From contig CANKTL010000003.1 in assembly GCA_947486405.1 (NCBI GenBank), positions 1 through 42,465 of the forward strand: a stretch of 42,465 nucleotides of DNA, in the 5' to 3' direction. The notes beneath the pieces are model-generated. The model made no database searches, was not told the DNA's origin, and worked only from the letters and a program-made list of their open reading frames with translations. The DNA comes from a bacterium. Lineage in GTDB: Bacteria > Margulisbacteria > Marinamargulisbacteria > CANKTL01. Shown in pieces: positions 23,885-42,465 of this stretch (the first letter of the stretch is position 1; each line of letters begins with the position of its first letter). Both the position numbers and the translations under genes were made by a program.

Positions 23885-24589
23885 ATGACTGACTCAACCC
23901 TGTTGGTAGACATCGGTAATTCAAAAACCGGTTTGGCGGATTATGGCAGTGGTCATATTAGCAAAACGCGCTGGCTAGATACCGCTATCATTCAGTCTTC
24001 AGCACCTTTTGAAGGATATGTTCGCATTGTGGTGTCGTCTGTCGTGCCTGATCTTGATCATTTTTTACCTGGACATGCCCAGTTTATTACCCATCAAAAT
24101 ATCCCCAATCTGACAATTAATCTAAGCTCTCCCAACGAAGTAGGCGCAGACCGAATCGTGAACGCGTTGGCGGCATATTCCGGTCAAAAACGGAGTTGTT
24201 TGGTGGTGGATTCCGGTACCGCCACTACCTTTTGTTACGTGACTCAATCGGGTGTTTATGAGGGTGGTGCTATTTTTCCGGGTTTAAAAATGTCCTCACA
24301 GGCATTAAATGATCACACTGCCAAAATTCCATTGATTTGGGTAGAGCCTCAGCCTCGGATGTACGGAAAAAATACTGAGCAAGCAGTGCAAGTGGGCTTG
24401 TATCACGGGTTTATTGCGATGATCAATGGCATGATCGCCCAATATCGGCAGCTGGACCCTCTGATTTGGGTGGTGGGTACTGGGAATGGCCTGTCAATTT
24501 TGAAAGACCAATTGAAATTAGATGCATATGATCCGGATTTGATATTTAAGGGGTTGGCGGTGTGCGCCGAAAAGACAAATAGGCCTTAA
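23885..24589 (+). CDS. coaX: Type III pantothenate kinase
   Basis: LLVDIGNSKTGLADY, GADRIVNALAAY, VVDSGTATTFCYV, GGAIFPGLKMSSQAL. Confidence 0.92.
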   Translation: MTDSTLLVDIGNSKTGLADYGSGHISKTRWLDTAIIQSSAPFEGYVRIVVSSVVPDLDHFLPGHAQFITHQNIPNLTINLSSPNEVGADRIVNALAAYSGQKRSCLVVDSGTATTFCYVTQSGVYEGGAIFPGLKMSSQALNDHTAKIPLIWVEPQPRMYGKNTEQAVQVGLYHGFIAMINGMIAQYRQLDPLIWVVGTGNGLSILKDQLKLDAYDPDLIFKGLAVCAEKTNRP

Positions 24590-26429
24590 CCAGTGAAGTT
24601 GCGTCATTAATTTTTGACATGGCTTGATCTTTGTCCTCTATAAATTCATCTAATTGTAGAGGCCCCTCTCGCGTGGCTAATTGACTTATTAAACCAGTAT
24701 CCGGTTCACTTCCGGTTACGTGCGCGTCAAGGTCTGCTTGGAAGCTGGTCAGAACCTCGCCAGCTAGTTCTCTTTGACTTTGGTCTTGCAATTGTATGAA
24801 TTGCTGTCGAAGACTATCCTCGGGGCTTTCTTTAACTAAACTTGAAAACATTGCCAGGAGGGTAGTGCCCTTATTTATAGGCGGTGAAACCGGGAGGTGT
24901 GCACTTGCCGCCGTATGTCTTAACTCCTTGCTATTAAAGCTCCTTATGGCGGCCAAGAATGAGTTCTGGGTCTGTTCCCCGACCGTCGGTGAGTCTGGTC
25001 CAACTGCGCTGTCTTTTGATCCGGTGTCAGTTGATAATGCTGCCAATGAGGCACTTAAGGGTGACGCGCTTGGTTCTAGCGTTGAATCGGGTTCTTCCGA
25101 CAATAATGATGTCTGTGAACCAAGGTTGCTGTTACGACTATTAAATCCCGAATCACCAATTGGAGCTCGATCTCCATCTCCATCTCCATCTCCATCTCCA
25201 TCTCTATTTCCTGTGGTTTCGTAGGTTGTTTCATCGCTTATTTGTTGCTTTGGTCGGATTAAATCTACAATAATGCGTATTGCAAAATTGTATTCTTCAC
25301 TACCACGCTCCCCGTAGTCTGACGGGGAATTCGCAATGAAATTCTTTGCTGCGAGATGGAGTCCCTCAGTCGTTAATTCATCCGTTCTTGTAGTTGATCT
25401 AGCGGCCAGAAACTCAGCGAGGAGCTGTAAATTCTTTAAATCAGGGCGCATATGCTCCTTCCAGTTTGAGGCATTTTCTGCATCGTTTTCAAAATAGCTG
25501 CTTAAAGCCTCACCTACCTTCTCCTGAAAACTGTGTGTTGAAGGGCTGGTTGGCCGAAGGTATATAGTCACTTCTTCGTCGTCTGTTTCTGAATTAGATA
25601 ATTCGAACTCATCTTCGGTGCTGCAGAGGTCTGTGATGACAGTTCTTGCGTATGCTTTTATTTTTTTAGCTGCGTCCCCAAATTGATCCCAATTATAGTG
25701 TTCCAATAATTGGTCGAGATTGGCTTCAAATGTATCCTGGTCGGGGTCATTTTGGGTATAAAAATCATAGAGCTTTCGGTCATTGCTCAAGTGAACCTTA
25801 AGTTGATCTCGAACTTCCGTTTCTATCGTTTCAACAGTTGGAAACGTGTCTAAATCAAAGTTAAGTGAATATAGGAAACTGCCGTATGGATACTTTGTTT
25901 CTAGGTGAGTGTGCTGTTGTTGGATTTCTGTTAGCTGGTGTTTAAACGCCAAAAGGGCTTTTCTATTGCCTTTGAAACTGGAATCTTGAAGTAAAAGCGC
26001 TATTTTGGATAGCGTATCTTTAATCTCTTTTCCAAACGATGGTTGGCTTGCAGCCGAAAATAAATGGTGGAGTTCTAATGTTTTAAAAGAGGTTGTAGGC
26101 CCCAATAGAGTGCTCGCATTGTGCAGGGCATTTTTTACCCATTGTTCGATGCTCGTAGGTGGATTTTGGGGGCGATAATCTTCCATCGCTTTCTGTGCTT
26201 CTTGGTCTTTTTTGTTGGGAGTGCGCAGCTCTTCAATTTTAACCTGTAGCTTTTGAAGATGGTCTAAATAGGTGTTAGGGTACTCAGAAATAGCGGCACT
26301 CATTCCGGCCGACACTGAATACTCTGGTAGCAGTGCTAACGCTAAATTAGTGATGGCTTCGGCCCGTTTAGTGTCGTTGGCTAACTGCAATTTGAAAGAT
26401 AGTTCGAGCAGCGCGGTCATCGTGGGCAA
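24546..26429 (-). CDS. Hypothetical protein, helical, with GD repeat and Ser/Thr-rich linker (lineage-specific)
   Basis: Single long ORF; RDGDGDGDGDGDRAP tract; no recognised domain. Confidence 0.6.
   Translation of the reverse strand: MPTMTALLELSFKLQLANDTKRAEAITNLALALLPEYSVSAGMSAAISEYPNTYLDHLQKLQVKIEELRTPNKKDQEAQKAMEDYRPQNPPTSIEQWVKNALHNASTLLGPTTSFKTLELHHLFSAASQPSFGKEIKDTLSKIALLLQDSSFKGNRKALLAFKHQLTEIQQQHTHLETKYPYGSFLYSLNFDLDTFPTVETIETEVRDQLKVHLSNDRKLYDFYTQNDPDQDTFEANLDQLLEHYNWDQFGDAAKKIKAYARTVITDLCSTEDEFELSNSETDDEEVTIYLRPTSPSTHSFQEKVGEALSSYFENDAENASNWKEHMRPDLKNLQLLAEFLAARSTTRTDELTTEGLHLAAKNFIANSPSDYGERGSEEYNFAIRIIVDLIRPKQQISDETTYETTGNRDGDGDGDGDGDRAPIGDSGFNSRNSNLGSQTSLLSEEPDSTLEPSASPLSASLAALSTDTGSKDSAVGPDSPTVGEQTQNSFLAAIRSFNSKELRHTAASAHLPVSPPINKGTTLLAMFSSLVKESPEDSLRQQFIQLQDQSQRELAGEVLTSFQADLDAHVTGSEPDTGLISQLATREGPLQLDEFIEDKDQAMSKINDATSLVKAYLSFRRTPPTP
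25171..25206. repeat. Hexanucleotide microsatellite (TCTCCA)5 + TCTCTA
   Basis: tctcca repeated 5 times in tandem (25171-25200) plus one imperfect unit; encodes Gly-Asp on the minus strand. Confidence 0.95.
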
Positions 26430-40925: not shown

Positions 40926-41039
40926 ACGAGTTCTTTCGATTGTTGCGCTTGCCTTTGGCTTTGCTTTTTTGTCGGAAGAAAGATAGATTTTTAGACGCCT
41001 CTTTGACAAACCTGTTTGCACTCAAGGACAATTGATAGC

Positions 41040-41191
41040 GAGCCTTGGGGGTAACGAGTAGGTTCGATATGATTTCTACATTTGTAGATCCTAGCCTTGC
41101 GCAAATCGACCTAACAGAGGCTAAAGCTCCTCATTAATTTCTACTTTTGTAGATATAGATAGTAAATTTGGAGCCATTACCCCCAAAGCTC
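41040..41191. repeat. 15-nt inverted repeat flanking the two Cas12a-type repeat units
   Basis: gagccttgggggtaa (41040-41054) and ttacccccaaagctc (41177-41191), 14/15 complementary. Confidence 0.8.
41071..41154 (+). CRISPR. Degenerate two-unit Cas12a-type repeat pair (mini/pseudo-array) upstream of cas12a
   Basis: GATTTCTACATTTGTAGAT (41071-41089) and TAATTTCTACTTTTGTAGAT (41135-41154). Both keep the TCTAC/GTAGA crRNA stem typical of Cas12a. A 36-nt frame on unit 2 (41119-41154) leaves a 29-nt spacer-like segment, 41090-41118. Confidence 0.75.
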
Positions 41192-41251: not shown

Positions 41252-41278
41252 TTGAACAATTAAATTTTAATAGATAAT
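41252..41278 (+). promoter_or_regulatory. Candidate cas12a promoter (TTGAAC-N15-GATAAT)
   Basis: TTGAAC 41252-41257, GATAAT 41273-41278; short spacing, so weak evidence. Confidence 0.3.
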
Positions 41279-41391
41279 TTTTTGGATGATAGTGAATAAA
41301 CTATTTACAACAAGCGGCAAGGGTGCTACTTTTCCGTCAGTCACCCGCCCTCCACGAACACGGCACAGATTTAATCTAAAAGGAGAAAAAT

Positions 41392-42465
41392 ATGAAAAAA
41401 CCCGAAAAGATACACGAATCCAAAACCAACCTTTATTCGGTTAGTAAAACGCTGCGCTTCAAACTAAAGCCTATCGGGGAAACCGAAATTACCTTTGATT
41501 CTAGCAAAATTCGCGACGAGGATGAAAAGCGAAACGTGGCGTACCAGGAAGTCAAAAAAATGATGGATGTGCTACATCGGAATTTCATTAACGACACACT
41601 GAATAGCATCCGTCTCAATTCTGACTTACTTGAAAAATATATCGGCTTGTTTCAGATAAAGGACAAGGACGAGAAACAAAAAAAAGACCTAACGGACACT
41701 CAATCCAAACTCCGAAAAGAAATCCATTTAAAATTCACAGAAGAGGGGCTCTATAAGCATTTGTTTGATAAAGAAGTTCTCCAACTACTCAAGGACGATA
41801 TTGAACGGATTCGCAATGACAAGCACATCAGCCTAAGCCCCAATGATGCTTTGGACTGCATTAACCAGTTTGATAAATTCACTACCTATTTTCGGGGCTT
41901 CTTTGAAAATCGAAAAAATATGTATTCTCATGACGAAATACATACCAGCGTGACCCACCGAATCGTTAACGAAAACATCCCTATTTTCTTGCAGAACCAA
42001 AATACGTTTCAAAAATTGAATTCAAAATACCCTGAAATACTTTCTAAGTTTGAAGAAAAGCAATTCAAACAAATCCTCGACAAATTCAAAATGGATACCT
42101 ACCCTCCTTTAGCGTCTATTTTTGAAAATGATTCTATCAACCGCATCCTAGATCAAAATGGTATCGATTTTTACAATGCCATTCTGGGTGCTTACAAAGA
42201 GGATAACAAGATTAAATCCATCATCGGATTAAACCAATTAATCAACCAAGAATGCCACCAAACTGGGGACAAAACTATCGGTAAATTATCTAAATTAAAA
42301 AAACAGATTCTTTCAGATATCGGATCCATATCCACCCGTCCAGAACCCTTTGTTACTGACAGTGATATGTATGTAGCGGTCGCCAAATTCTACGAAATCA
42401 GTCGCGATTCATTTTCAAATTTAGAACGGGTTATAAGCTCATTAGCGGAAGGGCAGCTCCCAACA
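41392..42465 (+). CDS. cas12a: CRISPR-associated endonuclease Cas12a (Cpf1), N-terminal 358 aa, 3' truncated by window end
   Basis: Manual translation has no stop: MKKPEKIHESKTNLYSVSKTLRFKLKPIGETEITF...YQEVKKMMDVLHRNFINDTLNSIRL...FTTYFRGFFENRKNMYS...NGIDFYNAILGAY...IIGLNQLINQ; matches Cas12a N-terminal/REC motifs. SD AGGAG at 41381. Confidence 0.95.
   Translation, partial: MKKPEKIHESKTNLYSVSKTLRFKLKPIGETEITFDSSKIRDEDEKRNVAYQEVKKMMDVLHRNFINDTLNSIRLNSDLLEKYIGLFQIKDKDEKQKKDLTDTQSKLRKEIHLKFTEEGLYKHLFDKEVLQLLKDDIERIRNDKHISLSPNDALDCINQFDKFTTYFRGFFENRKNMYSHDEIHTSVTHRIVNENIPIFLQNQNTFQKLNSKYPEILSKFEEKQFKQILDKFKMDTYPPLASIFENDSINRILDQNGIDFYNAILGAYKEDNKIKSIIGLNQLINQECHQTGDKTIGKLSKLKKQILSDIGSISTRPEPFVTDSDMYVAVAKFYEISRDSFSNLERVISSLAEGQLPT

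Follow-up and report, generated by a model that had tools for sequence, protein, structure and literature searches.

A candidate CreR-like element with two repeats upstream of a divergent cas12a gene in Candidatus Margulisiibacteriota

INTRODUCTION

Does a cas12a gene that is cut off at the end of a contig carry, in its upstream region, the means of its own repression? In type I and type V-A systems, crRNA-like RNAs called CreR guide the effector to its own promoter, and the resulting repression is relieved once immune crRNAs draw off the effector or anti-CRISPR proteins disable it (PMC12737573, PMC13131331, PMC12948488). By way of the papers that cite it (PMC12948488, PMC12737573 and PMC13131331), the type V-A CreR is attributed to Liu et al. 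2023.

We analysed one stretch of DNA, called the window, which is a complete contig (G000:C3, 42,465 bp) from a metagenome-assembled genome of the phylum Candidatus Margulisiibacteriota (983,649 bp in 72 contigs, 66.8% complete). Its arrangement suggests that a mini-CRISPR upstream of cas12a is quite probably a CreR-like element, making an RNA by which Cas12a would repress its own gene.

RESULTS

The contig ends inside a divergent Cas12a gene

On the forward strand, an ATG preceded at six bases by an AGGAG ribosome-binding site opens a frame of 358 codons that continues to the window's final base.

41392–42465, + strand: cas12a, N-terminal 358 codons (WED-I and REC1), recognised by profile matches and a PDB sequence search; cut by the contig end

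The gene was cut by the assembly and, because the window is the complete contig, no further sequence follows the fragment. An earlier note on this DNA, made from the letters and a list of open reading frames, had described a Cas12a gene entering at the window edge in a 358-codon frame that lacks a stop codon and is missing from that list; the frame is indeed open to the last base, and its omission arises because default lists leave out frames that run off an end. The Cas12a profile search proposed in the same note returned matches far beyond chance: the NCBIfam profile TIGR04330 at 2e-73 (model positions 5–336 of 1288), Pfam REC1 (PF18501) at 1.7e-54 over the full 250-position domain, and the best of the PADLOC Cas12a profiles at 2.4e-75. 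The NCBIfam score is 247.8 bits, against a whole-protein cut-off of 300 bits, and the match spans roughly a quarter of the model. A PDB sequence search placed 8qwd (‘ReChb’) first at 3.6e-58, followed by LbCas12a at about 1e-47. The N-terminal and REC motifs quoted earlier are present in the translation, and the invariant KTLRF and NR.N residues are retained in a five-row alignment. By three profile libraries and the PDB search, the fragment is, at the level of sequence, the N-terminal quarter of a real type V-A Cas12a.

When the rest of the gene was sought across the window's assembly, no other Cas12a fragment was found; within this 67%-complete assembly, a search for Cas1 returned none and a search for the main array returned no V-A repeats beyond the upstream two. 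Elsewhere in the window, positions 1121–1982 hold two overlapping tandem ssb genes (157 and 138 aa, both matching Pfam SSB) between rpsF-like and rpsR-like frames, and positions 24546–26429 on the reverse strand hold a frame of 627 aa that contains a DGDGDGDG stretch and matched nothing in Pfam.

Of 79 genomes in the phylum, 3 have a Cas12a match, one of them being the window's own. The one complete cas12a found there (L008) has RuvC and Nuc, and its product is 100% identical to the Cas12a of record DYQY01000006.1 from Candidatus Termititenax, a genus within Candidatus Margulisiibacteriota. Compared with 81 others, the window's Cas12a reaches a highest identity of 39%, over 330 columns. In the 82-row N-terminal tree its position is not resolved and its end branch measures 1.57 against a median of 0.35, second only to that of L067, a frameshifted row. 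What had been called probably a new ortholog is thus, as identity and branch length indicate, a new and divergent one. A peptide-pattern search of genome and viral contigs returned no near relatives of the fragment, a search of phages and plasmids likewise returned none, and no close relative sharing the upstream region was found. The fragment's G+C content is 37.8%, compared with 48.5% in the window's first 40 kb, which fits horizontal acquisition without proving it.

Several other loci drew attention during this comparison. The cas12a stretches of L025, L040 and L067 contain 2, 1 and 75 internal stops, respectively, and L067 looks frameshifted. In the Cas12a tree, the Termititenax Cas12a has as its partner (100/98) the protein of L015, whose record bears the title Candidatus ainarchaeum, and L013 (from a record titled Alphaproteobacteria) falls inside Bacteroidota; either placement could reflect transfer or misbinning.

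Two exact type V-A repeats precede the gene

A tRNA-Arg gene ends 531 bp upstream of cas12a. In the region leading to the gene we observed two exact V-A repeats, which start 320 and 255 bp 5′ of the start codon and form the following element.

41003–41032, + strand: possible promoter from which the two repeats would be transcribed, TTGACA, 18 nt, GACAAT (10/12)
41040–41054 and 41177–41191, + strand: inverted repeat GAGCCTTGGGGGTAA / TTACCCCCAAAGCTC, enclosing both repeats
41072–41089, + strand: repeat 1, crRNA-handle half ATTTCTACATTTGTAGAT, an exact V-A handle
41090–41118, + strand: guide 1, a 29-nt spacer-like segment between the two repeats
41119–41154, + strand: repeat 2, resembling a full-length 36-nt V-A repeat GGCTAAAGCTCCTCATTAATTTCTACTTTTGTAGAT; handle at 41137–41154
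41155–41178, + strand: guide 2, putative CreR guide ATAGATAGTAAATTTGGAGCCATT, with a PAM and seed match in the cas12a promoter

These are the only mismatch-free V-A repeats in the whole assembly; the TCTAC...GTAGA handle is present, and RNA folding forms the hairpins of both. Repeat 1 keeps the handle half alone, its 5′ half (41054–41071) being unlike V-A repeats (P = 0.66); the 5′ half of repeat 2 matches a V-A array repeat at 13/18 positions (P = 0.002 against shuffles). The distance from repeat to repeat is 65 bp, or 36 + 29. The fold of the element's 171-nt RNA is more stable than those of shuffled versions (z = −3.7), of which 1/200 was as stable. In the predicted fold, guide 1 pairs through its initial TAGCCT with AGGCTA at the start of repeat 2 (41090–41124), which may be chance. 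Promoter sites of the TTGACA/GACAAT type number 3, with 2.0 expected by chance, a count that is not significant by itself. A tRNA alone exceeded its gathering score in the Rfam scan, and the upstream region does not recur as an element elsewhere in the assembly.

For guide 1, we found no PAM and seed target near cas12a, no TTTV + 8-nt match anywhere in the window's assembly and no exact 18-mer in IMG/VR.

Guide 2 matches the cas12a promoter region beside a PAM

In the stretch that separates the repeats from cas12a, a PAM-flanked partial match to guide 2 lies 122 bp ahead of the start codon.

41252–41278, + strand: weak sigma-70-like promoter of cas12a, TTGAAC, 15 nt, GATAAT (9/12, short spacer)
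41266–41289, + strand: putative CreR target, a TTTA PAM (41266–41269) followed by protospacer ATAGATAATTTTTTGGATGA; match to guide 2

The sequence that follows repeat 2, ATAGATAGTAAATTTGGAGC, agrees with TTTA-ATAGATAATTTTTTGGATGA over 7 contiguous seed nucleotides from the PAM and at 12/20 positions overall. This site, which overlaps the weakly predicted −10 box, is the sole TTTV + 7 match of guide 2 in the 42-kb window. The match is rare by four controls, at a chance of about 0.002: the frequency was 0.0025 for shuffled guides, 0/768 for the array spacers of other loci set against the window promoter, 42/20000 for Markov-simulated promoters and 11/5715 for 20-mers of the window. Set against their own promoters, 2/768 array spacers reach 7 nt. 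Because two guides were tried, the chance rises to about 0.004–0.005. Past the seed, a second matching block in the window is not significant (P = 0.47).

Guides beside intact upstream repeats in other loci match their own cas12a promoter regions

We compared 80 Cas12a loci, 68 of which have at least 700 bp of upstream sequence, by scanning the 700 bp upstream for repeat handles with at most two mismatches. Candidates appeared in fourteen loci, and only mismatch-free ones were carried forward; two-mismatch candidates (e.g. L025, L042, L046, L052, L054, L063, L088 and L010) stood outside the guide–target comparison. With this cut, which was chosen after the listing was seen, six loci have a mismatch-free upstream handle (L013, L033, L041, L062, L089 and, on the opposite strand, the Moraxella locus L083), and in 6/6 the guide has a TTTA-flanked seed match of 8–11 nt in the cas12a promoter region. 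Against other loci's promoters, the guides of the six gave no match of at least 7 nt, except for that of L013 (3/80). Arrays were found in 46 loci, every one downstream of cas12a. Together, the own-promoter matches and the downstream position of all arrays show that an intact upstream repeat is regularly paired with the promoter of its own gene. The window has the same arrangement as the six loci, with the shortest seed among the seven, and it has two repeats where each of the six has one.

A looser scan, for a GTAGAT-like hexamer with a 7-nt seed, gave 24 loci against a mean of 21 for permuted control hexamers, which is no excess, so that the case rests on the intact repeat. Its low-complexity filter dropped 4/6 known pairs, and the scan consequently says nothing about those. 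Second blocks beyond the seed were jointly above shuffles, an effect that came from L041 (P = 0.001) and L083 (P = 0.047); a match that resumes after the seed is suggestive in those two loci only.

DISCUSSION

From this arrangement we infer a course of events that would run from transcription and processing through binding and repression to release from repression. The two repeats would be read as a mini-CRISPR in the same direction as cas12a, and the precursor would be cut by Cas12a at the repeats, with the RNA of repeat 2 loaded. The 7-nt seed of guide 2 would then pair with the cas12a promoter beside the TTTA PAM. A 7-nt match lies below the Cas12a cleavage threshold; we propose that, the match being too short for cleavage, the complex would stay bound at the promoter, where it would obstruct transcription. 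The outcome would be negative autoregulation of cas12a, as described for CreR, and repression would be released when abundant immune crRNAs compete with the complex or anti-CRISPR proteins disable it.

Part of the same evidence could be read as ordinary immunity, with the two repeats as a relic or minimal array (repeat, 29-nt spacer, repeat) and the promoter match as chance. The 65-bp spacing is that of an ordinary V-A unit, repeat 2 resembles a full-length repeat, guide 1 lacks a target near cas12a, and guide 2 would merely be flank past the last repeat. Yet the arrays of 46 loci all lie downstream of cas12a, a PAM and seed match of this kind has a chance of about 0.002 and is found with 6/6 comparable upstream repeats, and spacer 1 has no exact 18-mer match in IMG/VR; we consider a relic array unlikely. 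Far less probable still is that the upstream RNA acts as an antitoxin-type CreA RNA, repressing a toxin as in CreTA or CrePA and not cas12a. Such an RNA would leave room for a guide 1 for which no target was found and for the enclosing stem, but the site matched by guide 2 immediately precedes cas12a, and there is no frame of at least 80 aa between the tRNA-Arg gene and cas12a.

Another reading is that cas12a here is a decayed, truncated gene whose first part is open by chance. The gene is cut at the contig end, and the cas12a stretches of some relatives contain internal stops (L025, L040 and L067). Against this, the fragment has 358 stop-free codons, a full-length REC1, the invariant residues and a ribosome-binding site, all of which make decay improbable. 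L009, another contig of the phylum, also breaks inside cas12a, so a break of this sort needs no decay.

Within the preferred CreR-like reading, the inverted repeat might close a single structured precursor that yields both repeat and guide units; guide 2 would repress cas12a, and guide 1 would have a second target or be a regulated arm of the precursor. We regard this two-unit form as a doubtful extension; if true, its architecture would be one that none of the six comparison loci shows. The two-repeat layout is likewise absent from those six, and such forms may already be reported for CreR.

By itself, the cas12a gene belongs to a known family, of which it is a divergent and incomplete member, and it contributes a divergent Cas12a from a phylum that has been little studied. 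More broadly, the 80 loci suggest a rule for reading genomes: where an intact repeat stands upstream of cas12a, the promoter of that gene can be expected to hold a seed match flanked by a PAM. Such a rule would ease the finding of V-A autoregulators, and it would yield natural guides with which Cas12a should bind its targets but leave them uncut.

Compared with known type V-A Cas12a proteins (8qwd ‘ReChb’, LbCas12a and the Candidatus Termititenax proteins of L008 and L010), the window shares the N-terminal WED-I and REC1 sequence, but it has the first quarter only, at no more than 39% identity to the others, and within its 67%-complete assembly neither cas1 nor a main array was found. With the CreA of CreTA and CrePA it has in common a crRNA-like RNA whose partial complementarity to a promoter would direct a Cas effector there, whereas the matched promoter here is that of a cas gene and no toxin gene was found among frames of at least 80 aa. 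The likeness to the type V-A CreR extends to a crRNA-like repeat and guide upstream of the effector gene, to a guide with a partial match, beside a PAM, in the promoter of the effector itself (the promoter being weakly predicted in the window), and to a match too short for cleavage, here 7 contiguous nucleotides from the PAM. The window differs in its second repeat, although repeat 2 and guide 2 by themselves have the form of a solitary repeat with its guide, in the enclosing inverted repeat, and in a 7-nt seed where the six comparison loci have 8–11 nt. The window is probably an additional CreR-regulated Cas12a locus, with a type of regulation that is already known for V-A systems.
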